Source: Frigoribacterium sp. PhB24 (GTDB taxonomy: Bacteria > Actinomycetota > Actinomycetes > Actinomycetales > Microbacteriaceae). From it: a DNA stretch of 64,000 nucleotides. The position numbers and the translations under genes were made by a program. The notes under the pieces were generated by a model. That model ran no database searches. It was given only the letters and a program-made list of their open reading frames with translations, and had not been told where the DNA came from. Below, one piece after another: positions 1 to 64,000 of this stretch. Numbering within the stretch: the first letter of the stretch is position 1; the number at the start of each line of letters is the position of its first letter. Where the stretch lies: contig NZ_RKIC01000010.1 of assembly GCF_003755185.1 (NCBI RefSeq), positions 310,001 through 374,000 on the forward strand, written 5' to 3'.

Positions 1-1665
1 GACGGCGCGGGAGTCACGCAGCCCAAGCTCGGCCCCGTCGGCTACCTGCGCTTCTTCTGGCGGCAGCTGACCAGCATGAAGACCGCGCTCTTCCTGCTCA
101 TGCTGCTGGCCGTCGCGGCCATCCCCGGTTCGCTCGTGCCGCAGCGCACCTCCGACCCCAACGGCGTCGTCCAGTACCGCACCGACCACCCCGACCTGTT
201 CCCCGTGCTCGACAAGCTCGGCGTCTTCGACACCTACTCGTCGCCCTGGTTCTCGGCTGTGTACCTGCTGCTCTTCATCTCGTTGATCGGCTGCATCATC
301 CCGCGCACGCGGCACCATTTCGAGGCGCTGCGGGCCCGCCCGCCGAAGACCCCCGCGCGGCTGTCGCGCCTGGCCGGCTACCGGTCGATCACGCTCGAGA
401 CCGGAGGAGGCGCGGGTGAGGCCTCGACCACGACCGCCCGTGCCGTCGACGCGGCCCGCGCGCAGCTGAAGCGCGCCGGCTACCGCACGCAGGTCTTCGG
501 CGACTCGGTCAGCGCGGAGCGCGGCTACCTGCGCGAGACCGGCAACCTGGTGTTCCACTCGGCGCTCGTCGGAGTGTTGCTGACCGTCGGGGTCGGCGGC
601 GGCTTCGGGTACTCGGGCCAGCGCGTGGTCGTCGAAGGGCAGACCTTCTCGAACGTGCTCGGCTCGTACGACTCCTTCAACCCGGGCCGCTGGTTCGACG
701 AGTCGCAGTTGTCCCCGTTCTCGATCGCACTCGACGAGTTCTCGACCGAGTACGCGCCGGACTCCGCGGGTGCCGCCGGCATGGCCACCGACTTCACGGC
801 CGACGTCACCGCGCAGGCGCGGGGCGGCGAGGCCGAGAAGACGCAGATCAAGGTCAATTCGCCCCTGTCGATCGGTGGATCGAACGTCTACCTGCTGGGC
901 AACGGCTACGCCGTCGACGTGACGGTGCGCGACGGCGAGGGCAACGTTGCCTTCCGCGACACCGTGCCGTTCCTCCCGCAAGACACCAACCTCACCTCGC
1001 TCGGCGTCATCAAGGTGCCCGACGCCCTGCCCGAGCAGCTCGGCATGATCGGGTTCTTCTACCCCAGCGCCGTCGACCTCGGCACGGGGGCGCTGTCCTC
1101 GAACGACCCCGACACGACGAATCCCGTGCTCAGCCTGAACGTCTACTCGGGCGACCTGGGGCTGGACGACGGCGTGCCCACCTCGGTCTACACGTTGACG
1201 ACCGACGGGCTGACCCCTCTGGCCGGCACGGACGACGCCGCGAAGGAGAAGGCCATCCAGCTGAAGCCCGGCGAGACCGCGACGATCCCCGAGGGCCTCG
1301 GCACGATCACCTTCGACGGCGTCAAGCGTTTCGCCTCGTTCGACATCCACCACGACCCCTCGCAGGTCTGGGTGCTGCTGTTCGCCGGGCTGTCGTTCGC
1401 CGGCCTGCTGACGGCGCTGTTCGTGCCCCGCCGTCGCGTCTGGGTCAAGGCCACCGAGACCGACCGAGGCGTGCGGCTCGAGTACGCCGGGCTCGCCCGC
1501 GGCGAGGACCCCACACTCGGACGTGCCGTCGGTGACATCGCCAGGACCCACCTCGGCGGTCTCGGCGTCCCACCCGACGTCGCCCGCGAGGTGGCGGACG
1601 ACCCGGCCCGTCACGACGTCGAGAAACCCGGCCCCGGTGCGGGCGGGCGCGGACGTAAGATCTGA
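1..1665 (+). CDS. resB: Cytochrome c biogenesis protein ResB (5' partial)
   Basis: ResB/Ccs1 is the membrane partner of ResC in system II cytochrome c maturation, which delivers haem to apocytochrome c outside the membrane. The frame is open from base 1, and the residues before the Met at 76 (GPVGYLRFFWRQLTSMK) match the usual ResB N-terminus, so the start lies upstream of the window. Visible parts are a first membrane segment ending PGSLVPQR, a second (SAVYLLLFISLIGCIIPR), a third near residue 190, a long extracytoplasmic domain, and a last membrane segment (VWVLLFAGLSFAGLLTALF) before a charged C-terminal tail. The stop is followed two bases later by the GTG of resC, so the two form an operon. 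The usual partners ccdA and a thioredoxin-like resA are probably upstream, outside the window. One copy of the AGGAGGCGCG motif lies at 405-414. Confidence 0.93.
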   Translation, partial: DGAGVTQPKLGPVGYLRFFWRQLTSMKTALFLLMLLAVAAIPGSLVPQRTSDPNGVVQYRTDHPDLFPVLDKLGVFDTYSSPWFSAVYLLLFISLIGCIIPRTRHHFEALRARPPKTPARLSRLAGYRSITLETGGGAGEASTTTARAVDAARAQLKRAGYRTQVFGDSVSAERGYLRETGNLVFHSALVGVLLTVGVGGGFGYSGQRVVVEGQTFSNVLGSYDSFNPGRWFDESQLSPFSIALDEFSTEYAPDSAGAAGMATDFTADVTAQARGGEAEKTQIKVNSPLSIGGSNVYLLGNGYAVDVTVRDGEGNVAFRDTVPFLPQDTNLTSLGVIKVPDALPEQLGMIGFFYPSAVDLGTGALSSNDPDTTNPVLSLNVYSGDLGLDDGVPTSVYTLTTDGLTPLAGTDDAAKEKAIQLKPGETATIPEGLGTITFDGVKRFASFDIHHDPSQVWVLLFAGLSFAGLLTALFVPRRRVWVKATETDRGVRLEYAGLARGEDPTLGRAVGDIARTHLGGLGVPPDVAREVADDPARHDVEKPGPGAGGRGRKI

Positions 1666-1667
1666 GG

Positions 1668-2678
1668 GTGACCGCCGACCTCGCCTACTACTCGCTCGTC
1701 GCCGTGTACTCGGCGATGGCCATCTACACGATCTCGTTCGTGGCCTTCGCCCTCGACCTGGCGAAGCGGTCCGGTGACGCCCAGCAGGCGGCGGCGCGTG
1801 CCGCCAAGGCCGAGGCCGTCTCGACGGCGTCCGTCTCCCGCTCGGCGTCGGGCGGCAGCACCGTCGTCCTCGACCGGCCGTCGGGCGGCTCCGGTGCCTC
1901 CGTGGGGTCCGGCGCCGGCACCCGGACCAAGGCATCGAGCTTCGAGCGCGTCGCCGTCGCGATGATGCTCCTCGGCTTCGCCGTGCACGTCGCCTCGGTC
2001 GTCCTGCGCGGCCTCGCCGCCGGTCGCGTGCCCTGGGCCAACATGTTCGAGTTCTCCCTGACCGGCACCGCGATCATCGTCGGGGTCTACCTTGCCGTGC
2101 AACTGGTGGTCAACCTGCGGTTCCTCGGCGCGTACGTCATGGGCCTCAACCTGGTGCTGCTCGCCATCGGCACCGTCAACTACTACGTCGCGGTCTCGCC
2201 GCTGCCCCCGGCGCTCCAGTCGGCGTGGCTCGTCATCCACGTCTTCGTGGCCATCCTCGGTACGGCGTTCTTCGCGATCGCGGCGGGGCTCTCGGCCGCC
2301 CAGCTGGTGCAGACGAAGCGTGAGCAGTCCAAGCTCGCGGGGCTGCGCGTCATGGACACCCTGCCCGGGGCAGAGCGCCTCGAAGACCTGGCGTACCGCA
2401 TCGCCCTCGTCGGGTTCGTGCTCTGGACCTTCACCCTCATCGCCGGCGCCATCTGGGCCGAGCGCGCCTGGGGTCGCTACTGGGGCTGGGACACCAAAGA
2501 GGTCTGGACCTTCATCATCTGGGTGCTCTACGCCGGTTACATCCACGCCCGGGCGACCCGCGGCTGGCGTGGTGCCCGCTCGTCGTGGCTGTCGATCATC
2601 GGTTTCGCGGCCGTCATGTTCAACTTCTCGGTCGTCAACGTGTTCTTCAAGGGCCTGCACGCCTATTCGGGCCTCTGA
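1668..2678 (+). CDS. resC: Cytochrome c biogenesis protein ResC/CcsB (CcsA family)
   Basis: Multi-pass membrane protein that with ResB exports and attaches haem to apocytochrome c. The 336-residue product carries the WWD-type signature WGRYWGWDTKEVWTF near residues 265-280, and candidate haem-ligand histidines in LVIHVFVA and YIHARAT. Eight or so membrane segments are visible. A Ser/Ala/Gly-rich linker at about residues 40-85 separates the first membrane segment from the rest; such a linker is common in actinobacterial members. GTG start two bases after the resB stop, so it is translationally coupled. Confidence 0.94.
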   Translation: MTADLAYYSLVAVYSAMAIYTISFVAFALDLAKRSGDAQQAAARAAKAEAVSTASVSRSASGGSTVVLDRPSGGSGASVGSGAGTRTKASSFERVAVAMMLLGFAVHVASVVLRGLAAGRVPWANMFEFSLTGTAIIVGVYLAVQLVVNLRFLGAYVMGLNLVLLAIGTVNYYVAVSPLPPALQSAWLVIHVFVAILGTAFFAIAAGLSAAQLVQTKREQSKLAGLRVMDTLPGAERLEDLAYRIALVGFVLWTFTLIAGAIWAERAWGRYWGWDTKEVWTFIIWVLYAGYIHARATRGWRGARSSWLSIIGFAAVMFNFSVVNVFFKGLHAYSGL

Positions 2679-2723
2679 TCGAGCGGTGCCTCGGCGTCGT
2701 GCGGCGAGCCGCGTGAACCGACG

Positions 2724-3740
2724 TCAGCCCGCGAGCACGGCATAGGAGGCGCGCAGCCGTCCCAGCCAGTCCTCGCGTCGGTCGTCGTCCACCGCGTGAC
2801 GACGCAGCAGGTCGACGTCGACGTCGACCCGGCGGACGTCGATCGTGCCGTCGAGGGGCAGCAGCGGCTCGCGCGTGACGTCGGCCCCGAGCAGGGCGGC
2901 CGTACCGAGGCCGCAGTCGTGCCGGAGGTCGGGCACGGCGGCGGCGAGATGCGCGCCCATGCTGAGTCCGACCGACGTGTCGATGGCGCTCGAGACGACG
3001 ACCGGCAGCCCCGCCGCGGCGACGATGCGCAGTGCCGCCGTGACGCCGCCGAGCGGCTGGGCCTTGACGACGAGCAGGTCGGCGGCACCGGCCCGGGCGA
3101 CGGCCAGGGGGTCGGCGGCCTTGCGGACGCTCTCGTCCGCGGCGACGAGGACCCCGAGTCCCGAGACGCGGCGACGCAGCTCGGCGAGCTCGGGCACGGT
3201 CGCGCACGGCTGTTCGGCGTACTCCAGGCCGTACGGTGCCAAGCCGACCAGCGCCTCCTCGGCCGACTCGACCGACCAGCCGCCGTTGGCGTCGACGCGG
3301 ACGCGGCCCTCGGGCCCGACCCAGTCGCGGGCCGCGGCCACGCGGGCGATGTCGTCCGCGAGGGTCTGTCCGCGTTCGGCGACCTTGACCTTGACCGTCC
3401 GGCAACCGCGGTAGCCGGCGAGCACGTCGGGCACCCGCTCGGCGGCGACGGCCGGCAGGGTGGCGTTGACCGGCACCCGGCGGGCACCCACGTCGGGCAG
3501 GTGGCCCCAGCCGAAGTCGATCGTCGCCGCGAGCCAGGCGGCAGACTCGGCCGGCCCGTACTCGGCGAAGGGGCTGAACTCGGTCCAGCCCGACGGGCCC
3601 TCGACCACCAGGGCCTCGCGCTCGTCGAGCCCCCGGAAGCGCGCGCGGAGGGGGAGACGGACGACGTGGGCGCCGTCGACCAGGTCGGCCAGGGGAGGCA
3701 GCGGGGGAGGGGTGGACGGCGCACGGTCGACGGTCGGCAT
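2724..3740 (-). CDS. menC: o-Succinylbenzoate synthase MenC
   Basis: Enolase-superfamily enzyme that dehydrates SHCHC to o-succinylbenzoate in menaquinone synthesis. The 338-residue product shows the actinobacterial MenC motifs: a KxK pair in TVKVKVAERG, metal-ligand regions VDANGGW, YAEQPC and ADESVR, and a second catalytic lysine in LVVKAQPLGG. Start ATG at 3740. It converges on resC with a 45-bp gap and diverges from the small membrane-protein gene at 3783. An AGGAGGCGCG copy (2744-2753) lies near its C-terminal end. menB, menE, menA, menD and menF follow nearby, which supports the assignment. Confidence 0.92.
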   Translation of the reverse strand: MPTVDRAPSTPPPLPPLADLVDGAHVVRLPLRARFRGLDEREALVVEGPSGWTEFSPFAEYGPAESAAWLAATIDFGWGHLPDVGARRVPVNATLPAVAAERVPDVLAGYRGCRTVKVKVAERGQTLADDIARVAAARDWVGPEGRVRVDANGGWSVESAEEALVGLAPYGLEYAEQPCATVPELAELRRRVSGLGVLVAADESVRKAADPLAVARAGAADLLVVKAQPLGGVTAALRIVAAAGLPVVVSSAIDTSVGLSMGAHLAAAVPDLRHDCGLGTAALLGADVTREPLLPLDGTIDVRRVDVDVDLLRRHAVDDDRREDWLGRLRASYAVLAG

Positions 3741-3782
3741 CCGCTCAGTGTCGCACCGGCGACCCCGGTAAGGTCGTGCGTC

Positions 3783-5184: not shown

Positions 5185-6344
5185 TGACCCGCGCCCTACG
5201 GGCCGTCGATGCGCGCGACCCCGGTGCCGTGCTCGACGGGCTCCGGGTCGCGCTCGAGGGCGGTCCGGCGGTCGCGCCCCGGGCCGACGACCTCGTGCCC
5301 ACCGATCTGCCGGGCCTCGTGCCGCAGGCCGTCTCACTCGTCGTCGAGACCAGCGGGTCGAGCGGGCGCCCGAAGCGCGTGGCGCTGTCCTCCGACGCCG
5401 TGCTCGCCGGTGCCGCCGCGGCCGACGGCGCCCTGGCCGGGCCGGGGCAGTGGGTGCTCGCTCTGCCGGCGCACTACGTCGCAGGCCTGAACGTGCTGGT
5501 CCGCTCGCTCGCCGCCGGTACCGAGCCGGCCCTGCTCGCGCCGGGGCACTTCGACGTCCGGGCGTTCGTCGACGCCGCGGCCGGGCTCGAACATCCCACG
5601 CGGTACTCGTCGCTCGTCCCCGCGCAGCTCTCGACGGCGCTCGACGCGGCCGAGGCGGACTTCGTCGTCGCGGACGCCCTGCGCCGGTTCGACGCCCTCC
5701 TGATCGGCGGCCAGGCGACGCCGGCCGCCCTCGTCGGGCGGGCCCGCCGCCTCGGCGTCACCGTCGTCCGCACCTACGGGTCGAGCGAGACGAGCGGCGG
5801 GTGCGTGTACGACGGCGTGCCCGTGGGCCGCACCCGCGTCGAGGTCGTCAACGGCCAGGTCGAGCTGTGCGGGCCGTCGCTCGCCGAGGGGTACCTCGAC
5901 GATCCCGAGCGAACGGCCACGGCCTTCGTCACGCGCGGTGGCCTGCGCTGGTACCGCACGGGCGACGCCGGCACGGTGTCGCCCGACGGGGTGCTGACCG
6001 TCAGCGGGCGGCTCGACGACGTGATCGTCTCGGGCGGTGAGAAGGTGTCGCTCGGCGTGGTCGAGCGGGTCGTGCGTGAGCAGCCGGGGCTCGCCGACGC
6101 CGTCGTCGTCCGCGCGGCACACGTCCGGTGGGGCGAGGTGCCCGTCGTGGTCACCGGCGCCGCGCCTCCTGCGCCGACGGCGGCCGACGACCTGTCGGCA
6201 CTGCGGTCGACGGTGGCGGCCGTGGCCGGTCGCGCCGCGGCTCCCGACCGCGTCGTCCGGGTCGACGCAGTGCCCCTGCTGCCGAGCGGCAAACCCGACC
6301 GGGTCGCCCTGACCCGCCTGGTCGCCGGTCTCGCGGCGAGCTGA
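5184..6344 (+). CDS. menE: o-Succinylbenzoate-CoA ligase MenE
   Basis: Acyl-adenylate-forming enzyme that activates o-succinylbenzoate with ATP and CoA for MenB. The 386-residue product is short for the superfamily but normal for actinobacterial MenE. Motifs in order are the P-loop-like SGSSGRPKR (~53-61), TYGSSETSGG, WYRTGDAG, SGRLDDVIVSGGEKVS, and the C-terminal catalytic-lysine region LPSGKPDRVAL. The start overlaps the menB stop by one base. menA follows after 27 bases but has its own leaderless-type promoter. Confidence 0.93.
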   Translation: MTRALRAVDARDPGAVLDGLRVALEGGPAVAPRADDLVPTDLPGLVPQAVSLVVETSGSSGRPKRVALSSDAVLAGAAAADGALAGPGQWVLALPAHYVAGLNVLVRSLAAGTEPALLAPGHFDVRAFVDAAAGLEHPTRYSSLVPAQLSTALDAAEADFVVADALRRFDALLIGGQATPAALVGRARRLGVTVVRTYGSSETSGGCVYDGVPVGRTRVEVVNGQVELCGPSLAEGYLDDPERTATAFVTRGGLRWYRTGDAGTVSPDGVLTVSGRLDDVIVSGGEKVSLGVVERVVREQPGLADAVVVRAAHVRWGEVPVVVTGAAPPAPTAADDLSALRSTVAAVAGRAAAPDRVVRVDAVPLLPSGKPDRVALTRLVAGLAAS

Positions 6345-7672: not shown

Positions 7673-7849
7673 GACGTGGAGTCTACGGTCCGCGAGGTGT
7701 GCGGCCGCCGAGCGGTGTGCGACCGCGACCGACGGGGCCCGCCGGGCCGAGGAGGCGCGGTGCGGCGCCACCGGGCACCGGACGTCACGGCTCCGCGACG
7801 GACGACCGACCATCAGGCGTTGCACCGGATCGAGAACTAGGCTCGGGGC

Positions 7850-12780: not shown

Positions 12781-14184
12781 CTAGGAGGCGCGGGCCCGCA
12801 ACGCCTCGCCGGTCCCCTTGGGCAGCCGCAGCCCCTCGACCAGGCTGAGCAGGGCCAGCACGGCCAGCACCATCAGCGCGGCCTGGTACCCGGACGCCGC
12901 GGGTGCCGGGCCGTCGCTCGAGGCCACGAGGTCGGCCACGCGGACGGCCAGCGCCGTCACGGCGACGCCGAGTCCGACGGCGAGCTGGCTCGTGATGGAC
13001 GCGATGGCGTTGGCAGGTCCGATCATCTCGGCCGGCACGTCGGCGAACTGCAGCGTGTTGTAGGCCGTGAAGCCGACGGAACGGAAGACACCGCTGAGCA
13101 GCAGCACACCCGCCACGACGACCGGAGAGGTGTCGGGGCCGACGAGCGAGGCCGCGACGAAGGTCGCCGCGAGGGCCACCGTCGCGACGACGATGATCGG
13201 GACGACGCGGAACCGCTTCAGGAGGGGCGTCGTGAACGGTTTGACGGCCAGGTTGCCGACGAACACCCACATGAGCATCAGACCCGCCTGGACGGGAGAC
13301 CAGCCGAAGCCGTCCTGCAGCAGCAGCGGGACCACGAAGGGGATGCCGTTCACGACGGCGCGGTAGAGCGAGCCGCTGAGGTTCGTCACGCGGAACGACC
13401 CGATGCGGAACGCCGCGAGGTCGAGCAGGGGGTGCGCCGCCCGGCGGAACCACCGCACCGCGACGAGCCCCAGCACGACCGCGGCGACGAGCAGCAGGAC
13501 GCCGGCCACGAGCGTCGCGGGTTCGCCGAGTAGCTCGAACGCTAGGACCAGTGCCACGATCGAGCCGGCGACGAGCCCCAGGCCGATCAGGTCGAGCGGG
13601 CGGCGGTCGCCGATCTCGGGGGAGGGGACGACCCGCCAGGCGACGACGAGCAGCGCGAGGCCGACCGGGACGTTGACCAGGAACACCCACTGCCAGCCGA
13701 GGTGCTCGGTGAGCAGTCCGCCGAGCAACGGCGCGACGACGGGGGCCACGAGCGCTGGCCACGTGAGGTAGGCGATGGCCCGGATCAGCTCGGACCTCTC
13801 GGTGCTGCGCAGGACGATCAGCCGGCCGATGGGCACCATCATGCTGCCCGCGAAGCCCTGCACGACCCGGGAGGTCGTCAGGGCGACCAGGTCGGTGCTC
13901 GCGGCACAGGCCACCGAGGCGAGGACGAACAGCACCACCGCCGCGAGGAACACCCGCCGCGCACCCCACCGCTCGGCGAGCCAGGCCCCCAACGGGATGA
14001 AGGCCGCGACGGCCACCAGGTAGCCGGTCACGGCCAGCCCGAGCTGTGCAGGCTGGACCTCGAAGTCGCCCGCGATCGTGGCGGTGGCCGTCGAGAGGAT
14101 GGTCGCGTCGAGGTTCTCCATGAAGAACGCCGCCGCCACGACGAGGGCCACCGGACGCGACCACGTCGTCGCGGGGGCGGTCAT
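12781..14184 (-). CDS. MFS transporter (DHA2-like drug/metabolite exporter)
   Basis: 467-residue protein with about 14 hydrophobic segments. FMENLDATILSTATATIA in the first helix and GAWLAERWGARRVFLAA in the loop between helices 2 and 3 match drug:H+ antiporter family MFS exporters. Its ATG overlaps the menF TGA by four bases, so it is translated together with isochorismate synthase. The substrate is unknown; export of a chorismate-derived or aromatic compound is only an inference from this coupling. The C-terminal codons and the TAG stop contain an AGGAGGCGCG copy (12783-12792). Confidence 0.88.
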   Translation of the reverse strand: MTAPATTWSRPVALVVAAAFFMENLDATILSTATATIAGDFEVQPAQLGLAVTGYLVAVAAFIPLGAWLAERWGARRVFLAAVVLFVLASVACAASTDLVALTTSRVVQGFAGSMMVPIGRLIVLRSTERSELIRAIAYLTWPALVAPVVAPLLGGLLTEHLGWQWVFLVNVPVGLALLVVAWRVVPSPEIGDRRPLDLIGLGLVAGSIVALVLAFELLGEPATLVAGVLLLVAAVVLGLVAVRWFRRAAHPLLDLAAFRIGSFRVTNLSGSLYRAVVNGIPFVVPLLLQDGFGWSPVQAGLMLMWVFVGNLAVKPFTTPLLKRFRVVPIIVVATVALAATFVAASLVGPDTSPVVVAGVLLLSGVFRSVGFTAYNTLQFADVPAEMIGPANAIASITSQLAVGLGVAVTALAVRVADLVASSDGPAPAASGYQAALMVLAVLALLSLVEGLRLPKGTGEALRARAS

Positions 14185-15465: not shown

Positions 15466-16206
15466 GTGACCAAGGCCGACATGAACAAGCAACCCGACGA
15501 GGTCGCCTCGATGTTCGACGGCGTCGCGCGCCACTACGATCGCACGAACGACGTGCTCTCGGCGGGTAACGCCGTCCTGTGGCGCATCGCCACCGTCAAG
15601 GCGATCGGGGCCGGTCCGGCGGACAAGGTCCTCGACATCGCGGCCGGCACGGGAACGAGCTCGGCGGCCATCGCCCAGCGAGGTGCCGAGGTCGTGGCGC
15701 TCGACTTCTCGAAGGGCATGGTCGAGGTCGGGCGCGAACGTCACCCAGAGCTCGAGTTCGTCGAGGGCAACGCCGAATCGCTGCCCTTCGACGACGACAC
15801 GTTCGACGCCGTCACCATCTCGTTCGGCCTGCGCAACGTCAACCGGCCGAAGGTCGCGCTCGCCGAGATGAACCGCGTGCTCAAGCCCGGCGGTCGGCTC
15901 GTCGTCTGCGAGTTCTCGACGCCGCCGTTCGGCCTGCTGCGAGCTGCCTACCGGGCCTACCTGACGTACGGCATGCCCCTCATCGCGAAGCTCACCAGCA
16001 GCAACGGTCCGGCTTATTCGTACCTCGCCGAATCCATCGAGCAGTGGCCCGAGCAGCAGGTCCTCAGTCAATGGATCCGCGGCGCCGGCTTCACCCGGGT
16101 CGCCCACCGCAACCTCAGCCTGGGCATCGTCGCCCTGCACCGCGGTCGCAAGCCGGCCCAGGGTGCCGCGCGCGCCTCCTCGCGGTCGAAGCGGGCGACC
16201 TCGTGA
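15466..16206 (+). CDS. menG: Demethylmenaquinone methyltransferase MenG/UbiE
   Basis: SAM-dependent enzyme that methylates demethylmenaquinone, the final step. The 246-residue product has the UbiE opening FDGVARHYDRTND, motif I VLDIAAGTGTSS, and FGLRNVNRPKVALAEMNRVLKPGGRLVVCEFS. GTG at 15466 chosen because of the leaderless-type TAGGAT just upstream. The C-terminal tail encodes ARASSRSKRATS, where the RASS codons are a CGCGCCTCCT motif copy. Its TGA overlaps the GTG of the next gene by four bases. Confidence 0.95.
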   Translation: MTKADMNKQPDEVASMFDGVARHYDRTNDVLSAGNAVLWRIATVKAIGAGPADKVLDIAAGTGTSSAAIAQRGAEVVALDFSKGMVEVGRERHPELEFVEGNAESLPFDDDTFDAVTISFGLRNVNRPKVALAEMNRVLKPGGRLVVCEFSTPPFGLLRAAYRAYLTYGMPLIAKLTSSNGPAYSYLAESIEQWPEQQVLSQWIRGAGFTRVAHRNLSLGIVALHRGRKPAQGAARASSRSKRATS

Positions 16207-17342: not shown

Positions 17343-17432
17343 CCGGCGCCGCGCCTCCTCGTCCGTCTCGACCTCGAGCACCAACGTCCAACCGGCCGGC
17401 CCCGCCGTGCCACCCCAGATCTAGGAGAATCC

Positions 17433-18832: not shown

Positions 18833-18880
18833 AGCGCGCCTCCTCGGCTCCCGCCCACGTCGGAGCCGAGGAGGCGCGCT
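18833..18880. terminator. 19-bp perfect stem-loop made of two inverted AGGAGGCGCG motifs
   Basis: The 19 bases at 18833-18851 are the exact reverse complement of 18862-18880, with a 10-nt loop. Each arm contains CGAGGAGGCGCG. It lies 17 nt after the fprA stop and 40 nt before yajQ, so it probably ends the fprA transcript. There is no T-tract, as is usual at this GC content. Confidence 0.75.
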
Positions 18881-21149: not shown

Positions 21150-22019
21150 CTAGCGACCGAGCGTCGTTCGGACGGCTTTGAGCACCGAGGGCCAGTCGAA
21201 GAGGACCTGCGCGTACGTCACCTCGAGCACCACGAAGCCGAGACCCGTGATGCGGATGGTCCGTTCGCGATCACGGTCGTATGCGGCCGGCGAGGAGTGG
21301 TGCTCCTTGCTCACGCATTCGAGAACGAACCAGCCGTCGACGAGCAGGTCGACGCGTGTGTGGTCGTCGACCCATACCTGTGGCTCGGCTCGGATGCCGT
21401 CACGAGCCAGAAGGAGGCGCGCGATCGACTCGGTCCCGGACTCCGCTCTCGCGTCGATCGATGTCACGAGTCCGCGGGCCGAGCGTCTCGTCGCCAGCAG
21501 ATGGCATACCTGGTCGAGGTCGGGTCGCTGCATCGGTGAGAGTCGGAGAGCCGAGTCGACTATGGCGGCCGCATGCTCTGCCGGTTCGTGGAGCAGGACC
21601 TGGGCCGCTGCTCTACTGGGGGACGCCAGCAAGCGTTCCGTCCGCCGGTCGAACCGCGACAGGTCACGGAGGACGAGCACGTCGTCCCGGTCGCGATCGA
21701 GTCGGGCGCCGGCGTCGTCCGGGTCCCTGAGGTCGCGAGCATTGTGGTCGACGGAGACGACCAGCCGTGGTCTCGGTGGGACCCACGCGCCTCGGTGCGC
21801 GAGCGACGAGGCTCCTGCCAACGCGCCTCCTACCCGTGCCGCCCGGATGACGTCGGCCGGCAGATCGAGGAGCCCGTACAGCCCATGCCGGATGCGGACG
21901 ATCTCGCCCGCGCGCCATGAGGTCTCCACCTGGCGTCGCGTCAGGCCGGTCGCGAGCAGCTCACGCCGATGGGCGACCGAGCCGAGGCGCCGAACGGTGG
22001 CCGGGACGATGCGAGTCAT
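21150..22019 (-). CDS. AbiEi-type N-terminal domain plus DUF559/VSR-like nuclease-fold protein
   Basis: 289-residue protein. The N-terminus (RLGSVAHRRELLATGLTRRQVETS followed by IRHGLYGLLD) is the winged-helix pattern of AbiEi-type antitoxins (AbiEi_4). The C-terminus (VDLLVDGWFVLECVSKEHH, then YDRDRERTIRITGLGFVVLEVTYAQVL) is the PD-(D/E)XK fold of DUF559, related to very-short-patch-repair nucleases. Where many relatives read ECDS, this one reads ECVS, so catalytic competence is uncertain. ATG at 22019. Codon use is less biased than in neighbours. It lies between two inverted repeat arms with no toxin gene beside it. Function not established; defence or mobile-element cargo is plausible. Confidence 0.72.
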   Translation of the reverse strand: MTRIVPATVRRLGSVAHRRELLATGLTRRQVETSWRAGEIVRIRHGLYGLLDLPADVIRAARVGGALAGASSLAHRGAWVPPRPRLVVSVDHNARDLRDPDDAGARLDRDRDDVLVLRDLSRFDRRTERLLASPSRAAAQVLLHEPAEHAAAIVDSALRLSPMQRPDLDQVCHLLATRRSARGLVTSIDARAESGTESIARLLLARDGIRAEPQVWVDDHTRVDLLVDGWFVLECVSKEHHSSPAAYDRDRERTIRITGLGFVVLEVTYAQVLFDWPSVLKAVRTTLGR

Positions 22020-38293: not shown

Positions 38294-39210
38294 GAGAGCG
38301 CTCCGGACGAGGAGGCGCGGTGCCCGTCCCCGGTGCTCGTCGCGTCGGCCGTCCCGTCCGCCGCCTGCTCGACGGTCGCGACCAGCCCGAGGTACACGTC
38401 CTCCAGCGACGGCCGGATGACCTCGAGCGAGCGGGGCTCGCCTCCGCGGGCGTGCAGGTCGGCGACCAGGGCGCCCGGTTCGGAGGTGCGGACGTCGTGC
38501 CGTCCGTGCTCGTCGATCCAGGTGACGCGAGGCGTGCGCGCCTCCTCGTCCCCGAGCTCGTCGGGTCGCCCCTGGGCGACGAGCCGGCCTCGCGCGATCA
38601 CCGCGACGCGGTCGCTCAGCTGCGCCGCCTCGTCGAGGTAGTGCGTCGTGAGGACGATGCTCGTGCCGTCCTCCGACAGCGACCGGATCAGCTGCCAGAA
38701 CCGTCGCCGGGCCTCGGGGTCGAAGCCCGTGGTCGGTTCGTCGAGGAAGAGCAGCTCGGGGCGGCCCACGACGCCCAGTGCCACGTCGACGCGACGCCGT
38801 TGCCCACCGGAGAGCGACCGGATTCGTGCGCCCGCCTTCGCCTCGAGTCCGACGGCCGCGATCACCTCGTCGACGTCGCGCGGGTCGGGGTAGAAGCCGG
38901 CGAAGTGGGCGAGCTGCTCACGGACCGTGGCCGTCCCCTGTTCGCCGGACGTCTGCAGCACGATGCCGAGGCGTGCCTTCCAGTCGAGACCGCCGTGCTG
39001 CGGGTCGGTGCCGAGCACCGAGACCTCGCCGCCGGACCGGTCGCGGTAGCCCTCGAGGATCTCGATGGTGGTCGACTTGCCGGCACCGTTCGGGCCGAGC
39101 AGGCCGAGGGTCTCGCCCGCGGCGACCTCGAACGAGATGCCGTGCAGGGCCGTGGCGGTGCCGTAGGTCTTGGTGAGGTCGCGCACTCGCACGACGGGAT
39201 CGGGGGTCAT
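38290..39210 (-). CDS. ABC exporter ATP-binding protein (DrrA-like)
   Basis: 306-residue ATPase: Walker A GPNGAGKST, Q-loop VLQTSGEQ, signature LSGGQRRRVDVAL, Walker B LLFLDEPTTGFDP, H-loop LTTHYLDEA. A C-terminal ~90-residue domain follows, as in DrrA-type exporters. The last residues (HRASSSGALS) come from an AGGAGGCGCG copy (38310-38319); another copy is at 38537-38546. ATG at 39210. Confidence 0.92.
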   Translation of the reverse strand: MTPDPVVRVRDLTKTYGTATALHGISFEVAAGETLGLLGPNGAGKSTTIEILEGYRDRSGGEVSVLGTDPQHGGLDWKARLGIVLQTSGEQGTATVREQLAHFAGFYPDPRDVDEVIAAVGLEAKAGARIRSLSGGQRRRVDVALGVVGRPELLFLDEPTTGFDPEARRRFWQLIRSLSEDGTSIVLTTHYLDEAAQLSDRVAVIARGRLVAQGRPDELGDEEARTPRVTWIDEHGRHDVRTSEPGALVADLHARGGEPRSLEVIRPSLEDVYLGLVATVEQAADGTADATSTGDGHRASSSGALS

Positions 39211-46162: not shown

Positions 46163-46887
46163 GGCGGGGGCTCGTAGGCCTCGTAGGCGTCCGGTGGCGG
46201 CGGGGCCGAGGCCCGGCCACCCGGTGCGAACGGATCGACGGGGGCCTGTCGTGCGAGGGTGTCGAGCACCTGGTCGGCGAGAGCCACGAGCCGGTGGATC
46301 TCGTCCTCGTCGCGCTCGACCCAGCGGCACTGCGGATCACCGTGCAGGGGGACGAAGTCGGTGTGTTGCTCCCACACCACGAGGGTGCGTTCGGCGCCCA
46401 ACACGTACTGCTGCCAGGCGACCTGACGAAGGTACGAGCGGGGGATCGACGACCAGGCCTTCTTGGTGGTCTTGATCTCGCAGAGTTCGACGGTGCCGTC
46501 GGCACGGACGGTCACGCCGTCGGGGGTGGCCAGGTGGCGGCGCTGCCCCGCGGCGTGGAAGAGCTTCTGGCTGGACTCGATGCCGTGCCGCTGCAGCACC
46601 CACCGGGCGATCTCGGGTTCGCGGGCTCGCCCGTGGTCGGTGTAGGCGTTACCGCCGAATCCGTTGCCGTAGAGCTTGTCGAGCACGACGGCCTGCACGG
46701 CCCGCGGGCTCGCGAGCCGGGCGACGTCGGTCGCCGTGATGCCCTGGCTGCGGGCCCGGAGCCACGCGATGCGGTCCGACGAGTCGGCCAGTACCCGGGC
46801 CAGGTGCGCAGGAGGCGCGGCGGGGGTGGCCGGTTCGTCGTCGTCCCACAGGGCGAGCATGGGTTGGACGACGGTCATGGTGACCAT
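46144..46887 (-). CDS. YqaJ-family (viral recombinase-type) exonuclease domain protein
   Basis: 247-residue protein with the lambda-exonuclease-like YqaJ fold: ITATDVARLASPRAVQAVVLDK, HGRAREPEIARWVL, then the PD-(D/E)XK core DGVTVRADGTVELCEIKTTKKAW, and YLRQVAWQQYVLGAERTLVVW. In phages this nuclease works with a RecT-type annealase; no partner is seen here, and the chromosomal context suggests a domesticated copy. ATG 46887 or 46878. C-terminal tail is Pro/Tyr-rich. Confidence 0.82.
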   Translation of the reverse strand: MVTMTVVQPMLALWDDDEPATPAAPPAHLARVLADSSDRIAWLRARSQGITATDVARLASPRAVQAVVLDKLYGNGFGGNAYTDHGRAREPEIARWVLQRHGIESSQKLFHAAGQRRHLATPDGVTVRADGTVELCEIKTTKKAWSSIPRSYLRQVAWQQYVLGAERTLVVWEQHTDFVPLHGDPQCRWVERDEDEIHRLVALADQVLDTLARQAPVDPFAPGGRASAPPPPDAYEAYEPPPYDPLR

Positions 46888-46966
46888 TGTCCCCCGTGAC
46901 GGGCGAGAGGACGGCACCCGCGCCTCCTCGTGTCGTGGACGAGGGGCGGACGCCCTGCCGACGCGG

Positions 46967-50269: not shown

Positions 50270-50302
50270 GCGGTGCCGACGCCTCCTCGACGCCGGCACC
50301 GC
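50270..50302 (+). terminator. Stem-loop before the solute-binding protein gene
   Basis: GCGGTGCCG (50270-50278) pairs with CGGCACCGC (50294-50302), 7 nt after the dehydrogenase stop. The right arm overlaps a CGCGCCTCCT motif copy (50300-50309). It may end or attenuate the first two-gene unit. Confidence 0.55.
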
Positions 50303-50425
50303 GCCTCCTCACCCACCCACCCCCGAGCGCACCATCCGCACGACCCACAGCACCACGACACCCCGCACCATCCCTTCCCTCACTCGATGAAGAGAAATCT
50401 CGAAGAAGAGACACCAGGAGAAGTC

Positions 50426-53655: not shown

Positions 53656-54824
53656 CCGAACCGGCCGTGGCCACGGCGGTGGGGCCGGTGGGCGTCACCG
53701 CCGGCCCGGCCGGCGACGTCGAGTCGAGCCGAGGAGGCGCGGTGCCGGTCGAGCCGCTGCGCGTCGGCATCGTGGGCGGCGGCTTCATGGCGCGCGTCCA
53801 CGCCGGTGCCGCGCGGTCGGCTGGTGCCCGGGTGGTCGCCCTGGCCTCGTCGAGCGCGGCCAGTGCGGCCCGGGCGGCGGCCTCGCTCGGCGTCGACACG
53901 GCGCACGAGACCGTCGACGACCTCGTGACCGACCCCGGTATCGATGTCGTGCACGTCTGCTCACCGAACGCCTCCCACGCGTCCGTCGCGCTGGCGGCGC
54001 TCGCCGCCGGCAAGCACGTCGTCTGCGAGAAGCCGCTCGCGACCTCGGCCGCCGAGGCCGAGGCCCTGGTCGAGGCCGCCCGTGACGGCCGCCTGGTCGG
54101 CGCGGTGCCCTTCGTCTACCGGTATCACCCGATGGTGCGCGAGGCACGGGCCCGGGTCGCCACGGGCGAGGTCGGCCGTGTGCTCAGCGTGCGCGGGTCG
54201 TACCTGCAGGACTGGCTGCTCGACAGCGACGACGTCGACTGGCGGGTCGACTCGGCGGCGGGTGGCCCCTCGAGGGCCTTCGCCGACATCGGCAGCCATC
54301 TCGTCGACCTCCTCGAGTTCGTCCTGGGCGACCGTCTGGCGCGGTTGACGTCGACGACCACCACGGTGCACGCGCAGCGCGGCGGATCGTCGGTCGACAC
54401 CGAGGACGAGGCGGCCGTCGTGTTCGAGACGGCCCGAGGTGCCATCGGCACCCTCTTCGTGTCGCAGGTCGCGCCGGGTCGCAAGAACCGCCTCCTGCTC
54501 GACCTGTCGGGCACCGCGGAGAGCCTCGAGTTCTCGCAGGAGGAGCCCGAGACGCTCTGGGTCGGTCGTCGGTCGGGCACGCAGCTCGTGGCGAGGGACG
54601 CCGCCGTGCTCACGCCGGACGCCGCGCGCCTCTGCACCGTCCCCGCGGGGCACCCGATGGGCTACGTCGACGCCTTCGCGGGGTTCGTCCGCGACGCGCA
54701 CGACGCCGTCCGTGGCGCCACCCCGGAGGGCCTGCCCACCTTCGCCGACGGCCTGCGCGCCGTGCGGGTGACCGAGGCGGTCCTCGCCTCCGCCGCGGCG
54801 CGCACCTGGGTCGACCTGCCCTGA
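53652..54824 (+). CDS. Gfo/Idh/MocA family oxidoreductase, second copy
   Basis: 390 residues if started at GTG 53652 (GTGA overlap with the permease). Rossmann motif RVGIVGGGFMARVHAG (~38-53), GKHVVCEKPLAT (catalytic Lys), and DIGSHLVDLLEFVLGD. GTG 53742, just after the AGGAGGCGCG copy at 53732-53741, would remove a 30-residue low-complexity N-terminus and is an equally good start. Diverged from the copy at 49115, so it probably acts on a different intermediate or a different position of the sugar. Confidence 0.9.
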   Translation: MTEPAVATAVGPVGVTAGPAGDVESSRGGAVPVEPLRVGIVGGGFMARVHAGAARSAGARVVALASSSAASAARAAASLGVDTAHETVDDLVTDPGIDVVHVCSPNASHASVALAALAAGKHVVCEKPLATSAAEAEALVEAARDGRLVGAVPFVYRYHPMVREARARVATGEVGRVLSVRGSYLQDWLLDSDDVDWRVDSAAGGPSRAFADIGSHLVDLLEFVLGDRLARLTSTTTTVHAQRGGSSVDTEDEAAVVFETARGAIGTLFVSQVAPGRKNRLLLDLSGTAESLEFSQEEPETLWVGRRSGTQLVARDAAVLTPDAARLCTVPAGHPMGYVDAFAGFVRDAHDAVRGATPEGLPTFADGLRAVRVTEAVLASAAARTWVDLP

Positions 54825-55936: not shown

Positions 55937-56902
55937 ATGCCCCGAACCCTGTCGACCGGCCAACGGAGCCGCCTGCTCGTCGTCGACCCCGCGACCGGTG
56001 CCACCGAGGTCGTCCTCGAGAGCACCCGCCTGCTGGTCGAGGCCCCGAACTGGAGCCCCGACGGCCGCTGGCTCGTCGTGAACGGCGACGGCCTGCTCTG
56101 GCGCCTGCCCGCCGAGGCGCGAGGCGTCGACGAGACGGCCCTCGAGCCGGTGCCGATGGGCGACGTCCCCGAGATCAACAACGACCACGTCATCGCCCCC
56201 GACCAGGGCGCCGTCGTCGTGAGCGCCCGCGACGGCCACCTGTACGAGGTGCCGTGGGACGGCGTCTCGCCGGGCGGCACCGCCCGCCGCGTGACGCGCG
56301 ACCACCCCGTCGGTCGAAACCACAAGAACTACCTGCACGGCGTCTCGCCCGACGGCGCGACGCTCAGCGTGATCGTCGGTGCGCTTCCGGGGCCGGTCGA
56401 CGACCCGGACGACCAGGAGGCGCGGGCCGGCTGGCGCACGAACGTCGCCCTGGTCTCGCTCGCCGACGGCGCGACCACGCCGGTGACCGACGACGAGCAT
56501 CCCGACGACGGGGCCGAGATCTCTCCCGACGGCGCCTGGTTGTGGTCGAACTCGGAGCGCGCCTCCTCGGGGGTCGCCGGTCACGCCCAGCTCTTCCGCA
56601 GCCGGCTCGACGGCGACGACGTGGTGCAGGTGACCGACGACGAGCGCGTCAACTGGTTCCCGCACGTGTCGCCCGACTCGTCGACCCTGCTCTGGGTGTC
56701 GTTCGAGCCCGGCACGCGCGGCCATCCAGAGGACCGCGAGGTCGTGCTGCGCACCCTGCCGTTGGGCCCCGACGGCCTGCCCGTGCCGGGCTCGACGCCG
56801 CAGGACGTCCTCGCCCTGTTCGGCGGCCAGGGCACGATCAACGTGCCCTGCTGGGCCCCCGACTCGACCCGCTTCGCCTGCGCCGACTACCCGCTCGCCT
56901 GA
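55937..56902 (+). CDS. TolB-like beta-propeller protein (PD40 repeats)
   Basis: 321 residues without a signal peptide. Repeats of the PD40/WD40-like type are visible: [72 protein letters not shown]. Probably a six- or seven-bladed propeller. Sits 15 bp after the isomerase and ends the cluster. Role unknown; a cytoplasmic sugar-processing or binding role is inferred only from context. Two motif copies (56415, 56558) lie in the gene. Confidence 0.82.
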
Positions 56903-56950: not shown

Positions 56951-57733
56951 TCAGATCTCGGTCACCCGGCCGCCCTCGAGGCGCAGCCGACGCTCGGCGC
57001 GCCTCGCCACGGCCGAGTCGTGCGTGACGACGACGAGGGTCAGTCCGCGCTCGCGCCAGACGCCTTCGAGCAGGTCCATGATCTCGTCGCGGGTCGCCTC
57101 GTCGAGCGAGCCCGTGGGCTCGTCGGCCAGCAGCACGGTGGGCTCTTTCACCAGGGCGCGCGCGATCGCGACGCGCTGCTGCTGCCCGCCCGAGAGCTCG
57201 ACCGGCAGGTGGTCGGCGCGCTCGGCCAGGCCGACGGACGCGAGCGCCGCCGCCGCACGACGTCGCCGCTCGTCGCGCGGCACGGAGCCGTCGGCGAACG
57301 CCGTCTCGACGTTCTCGGCCGCGGTCAGCGTCGGGATCAGGTTGAACCCCTGGAACACGAAGCCGATCTCGCGACCCCTGGCGGCGGCGAGGGCGTGGTC
57401 GCCGGCCCCCGAGAGATCCGTCTCGCCGAGCCGCACGGTGCCGCTCGTCGGCCGGTCGAGGGCGCCGAGCATCTGCAGCAGCGTCGACTTGCCGCCGCCG
57501 GTCGGCCCCTGGATCGCGACCATCTGGCCGGCCGGGATCTCGAGCGTGACGCCGGCCAGCGCGGTCACGGTCTTCTTCTTCTGCGAGTACGTCTTGACGA
57601 CGTCGGTGAGGCTGTACATCGGTCGGGGCCCTTCGGGTGCGTGCGGCGCGGTGGGGGAGTGCTGGTCGGAGGGGGACGAGGAGGCGCGGGTCGCGTCGAC
57701 CACGTCGGTCGCCGCCCCCTCGACACGGCTCAC
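56951..57733 (-). CDS. ABC transporter ATP-binding protein (MacB/LolD type)
   Basis: Walker [11 protein letters not shown]-loop [19 protein letters not shown], signature [15 protein letters not shown], Walker [15 protein letters not shown]-loop [11 protein letters not shown] 57733 overlaps the permease stop by four bases and gives 260 residues; the first 38 residues have coding-like third positions (about 90 percent G/C). ATG 57619 ([11 protein letters not shown]) gives the usual family length of 222 and is the alternative. The extension includes RASSS from an AGGAGGCGCG copy. Confidence 0.9.
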
Positions 57734-60214: not shown

Positions 60215-61818
60215 GCGATGCCCTGCCCGCCCGGGTGGGCTCGCGCCTCCGTGGTCTCGTCAGACGGGCGCCCGGGCTCGCCGGGCCGCTCACGCTGCGC
60301 AACCGCCTGATCCTCAGCATCGTCGCACTCGTCGTGCTGCTGACCATCGTGATCGGTTCGGTGAGCGTGTTCGTCCTGCAGGCGTCGTTGATGCGTCAGC
60401 TCGACGACGAACTCCAGGGGGCGACCGGTCGCTCGGTGCCCATGGTGAACGCGCAGGGCTCGACGTCGAGGCCGAACCTGACCCCCGACGACGACGACCT
60501 GTCGGGGCCGCGGCAGTCACCCGGCACCTTCACGGCCGTCGTCGTCAACGGGATCGTGGTCGACGCCTACCGGGTCGAGCAGTCGGGGCAGGTCGTGACC
60601 CCGCGCCTGACCGACGAGCTGACCTCGGCCGTGACGACGGTGGCCGGGTCGACCGAGCCCGAGACCGTCTCGCTGGGGACGGCTCTGGGCTCGTACCGGG
60701 TGGAGTCGCTCGCGGTCGGCTATCGGCAGCCCACCACGTCGGGGTCGTTCACGACGACGCCGGCCTACCTCGTGGTCGGTCTGCCGACGAGCAGCGTCGA
60801 CCGCACCATCACGGTCATGGTGATCACGATCCTCGCCGTGACCCTCATCGGCCTCGCCATCGCCATCGCCGTGGCCTACGGCGTCGTGCGCAGCGCCCTG
60901 CGTCCCCTCGAGCGCATGTCCGACACGGCCCTGCGGGTCGCCGAACTGCCCCTCGATCGCGGCGAGGTCGCGCTGGCGGAACGCGTCCACGAGGCCGACG
61001 CCGACACCCGCACCGAGGTCGGCCGCGTCGGCGCCTCGCTCAACCGCATGCTGGGGCACGTGGCGGCTGCCCTCGAAGCCCGTCAGCAGAGCGAGAACAA
61101 GGTACGGCAGTTCGTCGCCGACGCCTCGCACGAGCTGCGCACACCGCTCGCGTCGGTGCGCGGCTACGCCGAACTCACCCGCCGCATGAACACCGGTCTG
61201 CCCGACGACGTGGTCTACGCCATGGGCCGCATCGAGTCGGAGTCGCTGCGGATGACCTCGCTCGTCGAGGACCTCCTGCTGCTCGCCCGCCTCGACGAAG
61301 GACGCGACCTCGTCACGGGCGACGTCGACCTCACGCGGGTCGTGCTCGACACGGTCAACGACGCCCACGTTGCCGGGCCGACGCACGACGTCGACGTCTA
61401 CGTGCCCGACGAGCCCGTGACGGTGTCGGGTGACGCGATGCGCCTGCACCAGATCGTCGCGAACCTGTTGACGAACGCACGCACCCACACGCCCGACGGC
61501 ACGCACGTGCACGTCTCGCTCACGGTCGACGACGCCTCGGGGCGGGCCGTCGTCTCGGTCGCCGACGACGGGCCGGGGATCGACCCGACCGTGCTGCCGG
61601 TGCTCTTCGAGCGGTTCGCCCGCGCCGACAGCTCACGGTCACGAACGGTCGGCTCGACCGGTCTCGGCCTGGCGATCGTCCAGGCCGTCGTCCAGTCCCA
61701 CGGCGGGACCGTCGACGTCGAGAGCTCGACCGAGGGGGCGACCTTCACGGTCCGCCTGCCGCTGACGGCTCCCGTCGACGTGGCCGCTCGAGGAGGCGAG
61801 GAGGCGCGACTTGCGTGA
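60211..61818 (+). CDS. Sensor histidine kinase (HisKA type, with HAMP)
   Basis: 535 residues: membrane segments ~32-54 and ~200-225 flank a ~145-residue extracytoplasmic sensor region, then HAMP, H-box FVADASHELRTPLASVRGYAE, N-box IVANLLTNARTHTP, G-boxes ADDGPGIDP and GSTGLGLAIVQAVV. The C-terminal RGGEEARLA is encoded by a doubled AGGAGGCG motif, and its stop codon lies in the loop of a motif inverted repeat. Confidence 0.94.
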   Translation: MSDALPARVGSRLRGLVRRAPGLAGPLTLRNRLILSIVALVVLLTIVIGSVSVFVLQASLMRQLDDELQGATGRSVPMVNAQGSTSRPNLTPDDDDLSGPRQSPGTFTAVVVNGIVVDAYRVEQSGQVVTPRLTDELTSAVTTVAGSTEPETVSLGTALGSYRVESLAVGYRQPTTSGSFTTTPAYLVVGLPTSSVDRTITVMVITILAVTLIGLAIAIAVAYGVVRSALRPLERMSDTALRVAELPLDRGEVALAERVHEADADTRTEVGRVGASLNRMLGHVAAALEARQQSENKVRQFVADASHELRTPLASVRGYAELTRRMNTGLPDDVVYAMGRIESESLRMTSLVEDLLLLARLDEGRDLVTGDVDLTRVVLDTVNDAHVAGPTHDVDVYVPDEPVTVSGDAMRLHQIVANLLTNARTHTPDGTHVHVSLTVDDASGRAVVSVADDGPGIDPTVLPVLFERFARADSSRSRTVGSTGLGLAIVQAVVQSHGGTVDVESSTEGATFTVRLPLTAPVDVAARGGEEARLA

Positions 61819-61829
61819 GCGCGCCTCCT
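61799..61829. terminator. Motif inverted repeat across the kinase stop codon
   Basis: AGGAGGCGCG (61799-61808) and CGCGCCTCCT (61820-61829) are exact inverted copies around an 11-nt loop holding the TGA stop and the rplJ -35 hexamer. As RNA it could end the kinase transcript; as DNA it overlaps the rplJ promoter. Confidence 0.6.
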
Positions 61830-61840: not shown

Positions 61841-61846
61841 GTACGA

Positions 61847-63070: not shown

Positions 63071-63098
63071 AAGGCGCCACCCCTCGGGGTGGCGCCTT
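63071..63098 (+). terminator. Terminator after rplL
   Basis: AAGGCGCCACCC pairs with GGGTGGCGCCTT around a CTCG loop, followed by TTC. 58 nt after the rplL stop. Separates rplJL from the expected downstream rpoB region, which is not in this window. Confidence 0.88.
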
Positions 63099-63150
63099 TC
63101 GTCGTTCACGCGCGTGTCCTGCCGAGGTGCGTCGCCGGTCCGTCGTGCGC

Positions 63151-63262
63151 CGCGCCTCCTCGGGTGTTCGGCGGGTTCCCGTCGTCGGTGGCGGGTCGGC
63201 GCCGACCCGCCGGGGGAGACGCGAACCCGCCGACCACGCGATGGCGGTGGTCAGGAGGCGCG
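63151..63262. repeat. Nested inverted repeats between rplL and the APC permease gene
   Basis: Three perfect inverted pairs are nested: CGCGCCTCCT/AGGAGGCGCG (63151-63160, 63253-63262), CGGCGGGTTC/GAACCCGCCG (63169-63178, 63223-63232) and GGCGGGTCG/CGACCCGCC (63190-63198, 63203-63211, 4-nt loop). The inner pairs would terminate the permease transcript; the outer right arm covers the permease's last codons. Confidence 0.75.
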
Positions 63263-64000
63263 GGCCAGGACCGAGTGCCGGCGTCCGTATCCGAGGTACA
63301 CCGCGGTGCCCACGGCCATCCAGACGGCGAAGGCCGCCCAGGTGACCCAGCCGAGCGTCACCATCAGCAGGACGCAGAAGGCGCAGCCGAGGATCGGCGT
63401 CAGCGGGTACAGGGGCACCTTGTAGGTGCGCTCGAGTTCGGGCCGGTTGCGCCGCAGCCAGATGACCGAGACGTTGACCAGGGCGAACGCGAAGAGCGTG
63501 CCGATGCTCGTCGCGTCGGCCAGGGCGCCCAGGGGGACCACCGCGGCGGCCGCGGCCACCACACCACCGACGATCAGGGTGCCGGCGACCGGGGTCTGCG
63601 TCCGCTTCGAGACCCGGCCGAGGACACGGGGCACGAGGCCGTCGCGGGCCATCGAGACGAAGATGCGTGTCTGGCCGTAGAGCACCGTCAGCACGACGCT
63701 GGCGATCGCCGCCACGGCCGTGACGGCGAACAGGAAGGCGACCCACGGCTGGCCGGTGATGTCGGCGACGATCGTGACGAGTGTCGCCTCGCCGTCGGTG
63801 AAGGCCGTCCAGGGGCGTGCGCCGACGGCCGCGACGGCGACGAGGATGTACAGCACCGTGATGATCACGATCGACGCGATGATGGCGCGTGGCAGGTCGC
63901 GCTTCGCGTCGCGGGCCTCCTCGCCGGCCGTCGACGCCGCGTCGAAGCCGATGTACGAGAAGAACAGCCGGGACGCGGCGGCCGAGACCCCTGCCGCGCC
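63251..64000 (-). CDS. APC-superfamily amino-acid permease (N-terminus outside window)
   Basis: 250 C-terminal residues of a permease usually ~480-500 long; the frame is open to base 64000. FFSYIGFDAASTAGEEARD and KRDLPRAIIAS are the cationic amino-acid transporter (CAT) signature, followed by about seven membrane segments. The C-terminal codons and stop (VLARAS) overlap an AGGAGGCGCG copy. Substrate probably an amino acid; which one is not decided. Confidence 0.92.
   Translation of the reverse strand, partial: GAAGVSAAASRLFFSYIGFDAASTAGEEARDAKRDLPRAIIASIVIITVLYILVAVAAVGARPWTAFTDGEATLVTIVADITGQPWVAFLFAVTAVAAIASVVLTVLYGQTRIFVSMARDGLVPRVLGRVSKRTQTPVAGTLIVGGVVAAAAAVVPLGALADATSIGTLFAFALVNVSVIWLRRNRPELERTYKVPLYPLTPILGCAFCVLLMVTLGWVTWAAFAVWMAVGTAVYLGYGRRHSVLARAS

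Follow-up and report, generated by a model that had tools for sequence, protein, structure and literature searches.

The ten-base word AGGAGGCGCG is probably the dialect that one genus uses within a DNA uptake sequence (DUS) system of the family Microbacteriaceae. It was noticed in a 64,000-nucleotide stretch of the Frigoribacterium sp. PhB24 genome (contig NZ_RKIC01000010.1, positions 310,001 to 374,000), hereafter the window, for which an earlier note made from the letters alone had already proposed a likeness to uptake sequences. The word is strongly over-represented, restricted to the window's genus, balanced on the two strands and preferentially placed between genes and at gene ends, and its sites turn over; dialect-like words occur in other genera, most of the mobile DNA examined is poor in copies, and com genes are present. 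What we infer from these observations is binding of the motif, a bias in uptake, a receptor and a process of accumulation. A wider proposition, which we hold more cautiously as a likely one, is that self-recognising DNA uptake would have evolved a third time, in Microbacteriaceae, with the dialects AGGAGGCGCG, CGGATGYCG and GCAGGATGCC, a Flp/Tad or type IV pilus as reader, and phages answering through integration into dprA.

Abundance, placement and turnover of the motif

The window holds 26 exact copies of AGGAGGCGCG, 14 on the plus and 12 on the minus strand, where a third-order Markov model expects 0.4 and 100 dinucleotide shuffles of the window gave a mean of 0.80 and a maximum of 4. Among the window's 10-mers with at least eight copies, it has the top score under the third-order model. 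The earlier note had counted 25 copies, overlooking the one at 21412 on the plus strand and placing the minus-strand copy at 21822 one base too far (21823); its remaining coordinates were correct, and its seven nine-base matches (3251, 14420, 25162, 32564, 36461, 44212 and 55887) were all found at those starts. It had put the chance level at one or two copies; the excess it reported is real, and the expectation is even lower. The 14 copies that it described as preceded by CG were recovered as well (CGAGGAGGCGCG occurs 14 times), of 26 rather than 25. Across the whole genome (G000; 3.46 Mb in 17 contigs) the word occurs 1342 times, 680 forward and 662 reverse, as compared to 15 for the word read backwards, and the density of about one copy per 2.6 kb holds genome-wide.

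Simple codon bias, which the earlier note had named as the outcome that would undo its claim, does not account for the copies. In a test that permuted synonymous codons among genes and dinucleotide-shuffled the intergenic DNA (20 replicates), 400 kb of the window's genome held 34 sense, 48 antisense and 45 intergenic copies, against 3.5, 3.7 and 0.2 after shuffling. The congener G110 gave 39, 38 and 45 over 400 kb, against 5.8, 6.2 and 0.8. Genes were called by a small script of our own, at 88-89% coding and with approximate gene ends. In a 464 kb sample of the window's genome, 155 copies were divided into 42 sense, 60 antisense, 50 intergenic and 3 at edges, although only 11% of that DNA is intergenic. 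Of the 102 genic copies, 23 lie in the first and 24 in the last tenth of the gene. Intergenic density is highest in convergent gaps, at 1.61 copies per kb, as compared to 0.86 in tandem and 0.80 in divergent gaps, and 30 of the 45 copies in tandem gaps are closer to the end of the upstream gene. Dense core operons (G000:C1:320-400 kb) hold just 11 copies in 80 kb, and thus copies are not simply concentrated in core genes, a point that weighs against an uptake function. As a separate observation, a low-GC stretch of the same contig (G000:C1:140001-150000; guanine-plus-cytosine fraction 0.635), in which genes are poorly called, has zero copies and may be an island.

The balance of strands reported for the window was confirmed in samples of both genomes, the chromosome origin and terminus not being located; 20 samples along the single contig of G110 held 57 plus and 67 minus copies, and every sample contained the motif. 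Chi and KOPS (FtsK orienting polar sequences) show polarity along replichores, whereas AGGAGGCGCG has no consistent strand bias in these stretches, and a motif of that type was rejected with the proviso that the origin is unmapped. Neighbouring copies within 50 bp form 15 pairs among 279 sites, where 4.5 are expected, and 7 of these are inverted. The inverted pairs at gene ends that the earlier note pointed out are real: three such pairs behind genes were folded and proved to be strong hairpins (shuffle z -4.9, -7.7 and -7.0). Some close inverted pairs behind genes may terminate transcription.

In the window's genome the core is sharp, and its flanks carry weak information. In the 464 kb sample, the 155 perfect copies stand against a total of 72 across the 24 variants at core positions 2-9, while the two ends tolerate more change (86 variant copies at position 1, 40 at position 10). 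The extended consensus is roughly C-S-AGGAGGCGCG-G-n-K-C, and the flanks remain weakly informative to about +17 even if the analysis is confined to intergenic copies, 90 from two genomes. Among 199 genomes of the family, the four of the window's genus hold 730-1342 copies and most others lie near the level of the reversed control; a mild excess outside the genus was seen in G055 (216 vs 75 reversed), G008 (52 vs 14) and G119 (41 vs 13). The 13-mer CGAGGAGGCGCGG is present in all 16 genus genomes at 213-648 copies, with controls at 0-5.

Turnover was followed in an 18 kb stretch aligned over all 16 genus genomes. The alignment lists 20 motif sites, two of which (46810 and 46812) are one place split by a gap, and each is occupied in 1 to 15 genomes, with many one-step variants in the others. 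Comparing copy positions between related genomes, as the earlier note had advised, reveals sites that are gained and lost by point changes. Insertion of a mobile repeat was ruled out, because only 10-13 bases are kept and sites arise by substitution.

Related words, competence genes and phage DNA

Samples of other genera were searched for over-represented words with an order-3 model plus the codon and dinucleotide shuffles. Several carry dialect-like words that surpass both shuffles, most clearly between genes. The word of G150 is GCAGGATGCCCG (GCAGGATGCC intergenic 13 vs 0.0 shuffled), that of G142 is CGGATGCCGC (intergenic 24 vs 0.2) and that of G089 is CGGATG[C/T]CGCGG; G055 has a weak word, [T/G]GGAGGCGG. 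GGATGTCG reaches 18 intergenic copies vs 1.4 shuffled, and CGGATGCCG(C) is a further word of this kind carried by other genera. GGATGCCG is enriched in G106, G063, G089 and G008, and lies near the shuffle expectation in the window's genome (genic 68 vs 41.6, intergenic 2 vs 3.0). Alignment of ComEC yielded named relatives that identify the family as Microbacteriaceae; of the 80 named loci, 50 entered counts of GGAGGCG and 63 entered counts inside and between genes. In 30 Microbacterium loci (646 kb), GGATGCCG occurs 528 times vs 30 for its reverse, a comparison in which coding counts are not independent because the loci share genes, and 82 vs 3 times between genes. Of the 199 family genomes, 103 show a GGATGCCG count at least five times that of the reversed word, and those among them with no fewer than 400 copies come from 49 of 85 genera. 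In an order-wide draw of 159 genomes, a ratio of at least 5 was found, by our reading, in 9 of 11 members of the family and in 2 of 148 genomes of other families. The ratio varies strongly even among congeners (G106 28, G164 3.3). Aligned on GGA, the words share GGA-K-GC, and their common descent is likely rather than established.

Curtobacterium k-mers (TACGGCAC) were rejected as a dialect: TACGGCA falls in one reading frame in 25 of 34 cases and is never intergenic, and we attribute its excess to the same conserved genes recurring in five loci. Other repeats were met along the way. Rathayibacter sp. VKM Ac-2754 (L179) has GGAGGCG 41 times in 21.9 kb, the highest among the 50 loci, and may hold a related dialect; GGAGGCGC has no intergenic copy in that locus. 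GCGATCGC is enriched over the order-3 model in G055 (L084-L087; 56 vs 23.7) and G106 (L224-L228; 88 vs 35.9). A separate, mainly intergenic repeat around GTTCCTGAATGAG in G110 (L034-L053) may be an operator or an element like repetitive extragenic palindromes (REP), with 23 intergenic copies of TCCTGAAT in 400 kb where the order-3 model expects 0.5. G150 (L096, L097, L184-L189) carries the mainly intergenic repeat TCGTGGAGTCTCGC, parts of which occur in about 10-16 copies in 160 kb. Parts of GTAGGGCTGTAGG and GTAGGTCTCGTAG in G142 (L234-L238) number at least 13 copies in 100 kb, nearly all intergenic, and 80 kb of G008 (L088-L091) hold the REP-like repeats GGTTTCGAGACGCC (about 10-13 copies) and GGTTGAGGAGCCG (8).

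Competence genes, which the earlier note had suggested looking for, are present. In the window's genome comEC was found by family search and the adjoining comEA was recognised by eye. ComEC was matched in 198 of the 199 family genomes and dprA in all 16 of the genus, interrupted in two (G200 and G209). Inspection by eye around matches to the T2SSF family in the window's genome revealed a Tad/Flp locus and a type IV pilus locus, one of each. All 16 genus genomes have weaker, Tad-like T2SSF matches, and 13 of them also have the strong PilC type. Across the 199 genomes, the median GGATGCCG ratio is 7.2 with the PilC type (n=99) and 3.7 without it (n=100), in a comparison that ignores phylogeny and small-genome genera. 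A PilC-type pilus as a requirement is nonetheless contradicted by the three genus genomes that lack it (G200, G204 and G210), and in the examined stretch of G204 and G210 the Tad genes look intact by eye. In extracts of PMC4322843, Flp pili serve transformation in Micrococcus luteus, a member of the same phylum. Should the motif serve as an uptake tag, its more consistent reader within the window's genus would therefore be the Tad pilus, since Tad-like matches occur in all 16 genomes, the PilC type is absent from three and Flp pili transform M. luteus.

These words are scarce in most, though not all, of the DNA from phages and prophages that we examined. Seven Microbacterium phage records hold 61 copies of GGATGCCG in 273 kb (5-13 each; 13 forward, 48 reverse), as compared to 22,473 in about 24.5 Mb of seven Microbacterium genomes (1492-4098 each, strands balanced), which do not include the phages' own host strains. 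In phage Min1 its count matches what an order-3 model of that phage predicts (5 vs 4.9). Within the window's genus, the dprA match is split by an insert of about 18 kb in G200 (L251) and G209 (L252), two genomes that are about 85% and 94% identical to that of the window over the 18 kb stretch. Between them, the two inserts encode six proteins with matches to phage families (tape measure in two cases, portal, head, primase/helicase). Judged by eye, an open frame next to a dprA end is a putative large serine integrase, and the point of entry into dprA lies at roughly matching codons in G200 and G209. The two inserts, 37 kb in total including a few hundred bases of flank, hold zero copies of the motif, where about 14 are expected at the density of the window's genome and fewer once their lower GC is allowed for. 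Extracts of PMC12637031 describe pneumococcal prophages that interrupt the competence gene comYC.

A probable uptake sequence and its alternatives

Only two families with sequence-specific uptake, Pasteurellaceae and Neisseriaceae, are named in extracts of PMC7811141 and PMC5031613. The Neisseriaceae DUS, with its receptor ComP, is alike in having hundreds to thousands of copies of about 10-12 bases and rare single deviations, as portrayed in extracts of PMC12616744 and PMC5031613; its inverted repeats as terminators and its dialects around a conserved inner core, described there too, have putative counterparts here in the hairpins and the dialect-like words. It differs in that here the sequence is another, the carriers are Gram-positive Actinobacteria with Flp/Tad and/or type IV pili, and the bias in uptake is a prediction. 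The Pasteurellaceae uptake signal sequence (USS) is alike in its core with a less conserved flank, its high density and its dialects that track phylogeny, to which the dialect-like words would correspond (extracts of PMC12616744 and PMC7811141), while the present motif has a different core, GC-rich flanks and another phylum. Neither system is itself what we see, as the consensus differs from ATGCCGTCTGAA, AAGTGCGGT and ACAAGCGGT as printed in extracts of PMC5031613 and PMC12616744. M. luteus has the same set of tad and comEA/comEC genes as the window's genus (extracts of PMC4322843), but the phrase "uptake sequence" is absent from the main text of PMC4322843 and PMC12849477. No report of such a motif in Microbacteriaceae appeared among the matches listed, a search of titles and abstract beginnings with preprints and most subscription journals outside its scope.

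In the proposed mechanism, motif-bearing fragments would be bound during competence by a receptor at the cell surface that belongs to the Flp/Tad pilus or to the type IV pilus, or by another wall-exposed DNA-binding protein. ComEA and ComEC would import one strand, which DprA and RecA would recombine into the chromosome. Copies arising and decaying through point mutation would pile up where selection permits, in gaps, gene tails and permissive peptides, because motif-bearing alleles would enter more often.

Most of the sequence-level tests fit the likeness to uptake sequences that the earlier note had drawn, but the genomes without a PilC type and one without T2SSF do not, and these belong to a larger set of observations that count against it. 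The three PilC-less genomes G200, G204 and G210 have the highest 13-mer counts (585, 596 and 648), and G003, which has no T2SSF match, has a GGATGCCG ratio of 10, its enrichment being weak in a 100 kb sample. In G110 the core is less well defined, and one-step variants are commoner than in the window's genome: 124 perfect copies vs 130 over the same 24 variants, with positions 7 (46) and 9 (35) dominating. Over the 10 sites compared in the 18 kb alignment (3 intergenic and 7 genic; one of 11 copies, at a gene edge, was omitted), the motif showed no clear advantage in conservation over random 10-mers of that stretch. No dialect-like word was found in the samples of G014 or G042 (80 kb for the latter) despite ComEC, G014 showing no word excess over shuffles, and the likeness of the dialects in GGA-K-GC could be coincidental. 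The phage data are also mixed. Phage Efeko has 13 copies of GGATGCCG in 17.5 kb, near host density, and the Microbacterium genome G226 has just 1492 in 3.9 Mb; the dprA prophages have a GC of 0.60-0.61, below that of the host, which alone lowers the expected motif count; and G200 and G209 keep 585 and 395 copies of the 13-mer despite the prophage in dprA.

Alternatively, an abundant chromosomal protein, such as a nucleoid organiser or a Chi-type repair or recombination protein, could bind the motif, and selection for that role would maintain it. A spread over the whole genome at about one copy per 2.6 kb, the exact core in the window's genome and the presence in 20 of 20 samples of G110 would suit such a protein, but the sampled strands lack a consistent polarity (with the origin unmapped), individual sites turn over, intergenic and gene-end positions are preferred, and the word differs between genera, with no such word found in some; we consider this explanation unlikely. 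Quite improbable, in our estimate, is a motif for methylation or self-marking like HIP1, read by a methyltransferase or restriction system and accumulating through methylation-dependent repair or phage defence. Genus-specific words that are scarce in most phage and prophage DNA examined are what it would lead one to expect, yet a non-palindromic motif of 10-12 bases with flanks informative to about +17 exceeds the usual length of recognition sites. Genomes normally avoid restriction sites rather than accumulate them, which counts against it further. HIP1 itself is a palindromic octamer, whereas AGGAGGCGCG is not its own reverse complement, and the likeness to HIP1 that the earlier note had offered as another option fails on this point.

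A role chiefly as one half of a transcription terminator or of another RNA element is very improbable: the three folded pairs and the higher density between convergent genes speak for it, but just 15 pairs lie within 50 bp among the 279 sites, 7 of them inverted, and 102 of 155 copies fall within called genes, on either strand. We give practically no credence to codon or dipeptide bias combined with Shine-Dalgarno content. AGGAGG is the canonical ribosome site, and RASS and EEAR/QEAR are the favoured peptide readings of genic copies; such an origin is ruled out by the codon shuffles together with the orientation of copies in gene gaps, where tandem gaps hold 17 in sense and 28 in antisense.

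If the uptake-sequence interpretation is true, it would add a third, independent case of uptake tags, in monoderm Actinobacteria, and allow the origins of such tags to be compared, with many genera as natural replicates of dialects. It would also provide a handle for finding the actinobacterial DNA receptor and a simple tag with which to transform strains that resist engineering, and would bear on why bacteria take up DNA, on costly self-preference and on phages that integrate into dprA.

Copies in the window

Table 1. Copies and inverted pairs of AGGAGGCGCG in the window, with conservation among the 16 genus genomes.
Feature	Position	Strand	Context	Exact in (of 16)
Copy	405..414	+	Sense, within gene 76-1665 (+)	
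Copy	2744..2753	+	Antisense, C-terminal end of gene 2724-3740 (-), encodes RASY	
Copy	6161..6170	-	Antisense in gene 5184-6344 (+)	
Copy	7750..7759	+	Antisense, N-terminal end of gene 7379-7771 (-), encodes RASS	
Copy	12783..12792	+	Antisense, final codons of gene 12781-14184 (-), encodes RAS-stop	
Copy	16171..16180	-	Intergenic, between divergent genes	
Copy	17350..17359	-	Intergenic, directly after gene ending 17342	
Inverted pair (18835-, 18869+)	18835..18878		Between gene end 18815 and gene start 18897; hairpin -47 kcal/mol, shuffle z -7.7	
Copy (overlooked in the earlier note)	21412..21421	+	Antisense in weakly called gene 21150-22019 (-)	
Copy	21822..21831	-	Sense in weakly called gene 21150-22019 (-)	
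Copy	28050..28059	+	Antisense in gene 27662-28228 (-)	
Copy	29808..29817	-	Antisense, N-terminal end of gene 29796-30587 (+), encodes RASS	
Copy	38310..38319	+	Antisense, C-terminal end of gene 38290-39210 (-), encodes RASS	
Copy	38537..38546	-	Sense in gene 38290-39210 (-), encodes EEAR	
Copy	46810..46819	+	Antisense near N-terminus of gene 46144-46887 (-)	7
Copy	46919..46928	-	Intergenic; one-step variants in other genomes	6
Copy	50300..50309	-	Intergenic	5
Copy	53732..53741	+	Sense, amino acid 27 of gene 53652-54824	8
Copy	56415..56424	+	Sense, encodes QEAR	15
Copy	56558..56567	-	Antisense, encodes RASS	1 (the window's own)
Copy	57679..57688	+	Antisense, N-terminus of gene 56951-57733 (-), encodes RASS	4
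Inverted pair (61799+, 61820-)	61799..61829		Spans stop of gene 60211-61818; hairpin -34 kcal/mol, shuffle z -4.9	14 (each arm)
Copy	63151..63160	-	Intergenic	3
Copy	63253..63262	+	Antisense, final codons of gene 63251-63868 (-), encodes RAS-stop	12

In classing the copy at 50300 as intergenic, a 20-codon gene call at 50309 was disregarded. At the site at 46810, three further genomes carry a copy that is listed separately (46812) only through the alignment gap.

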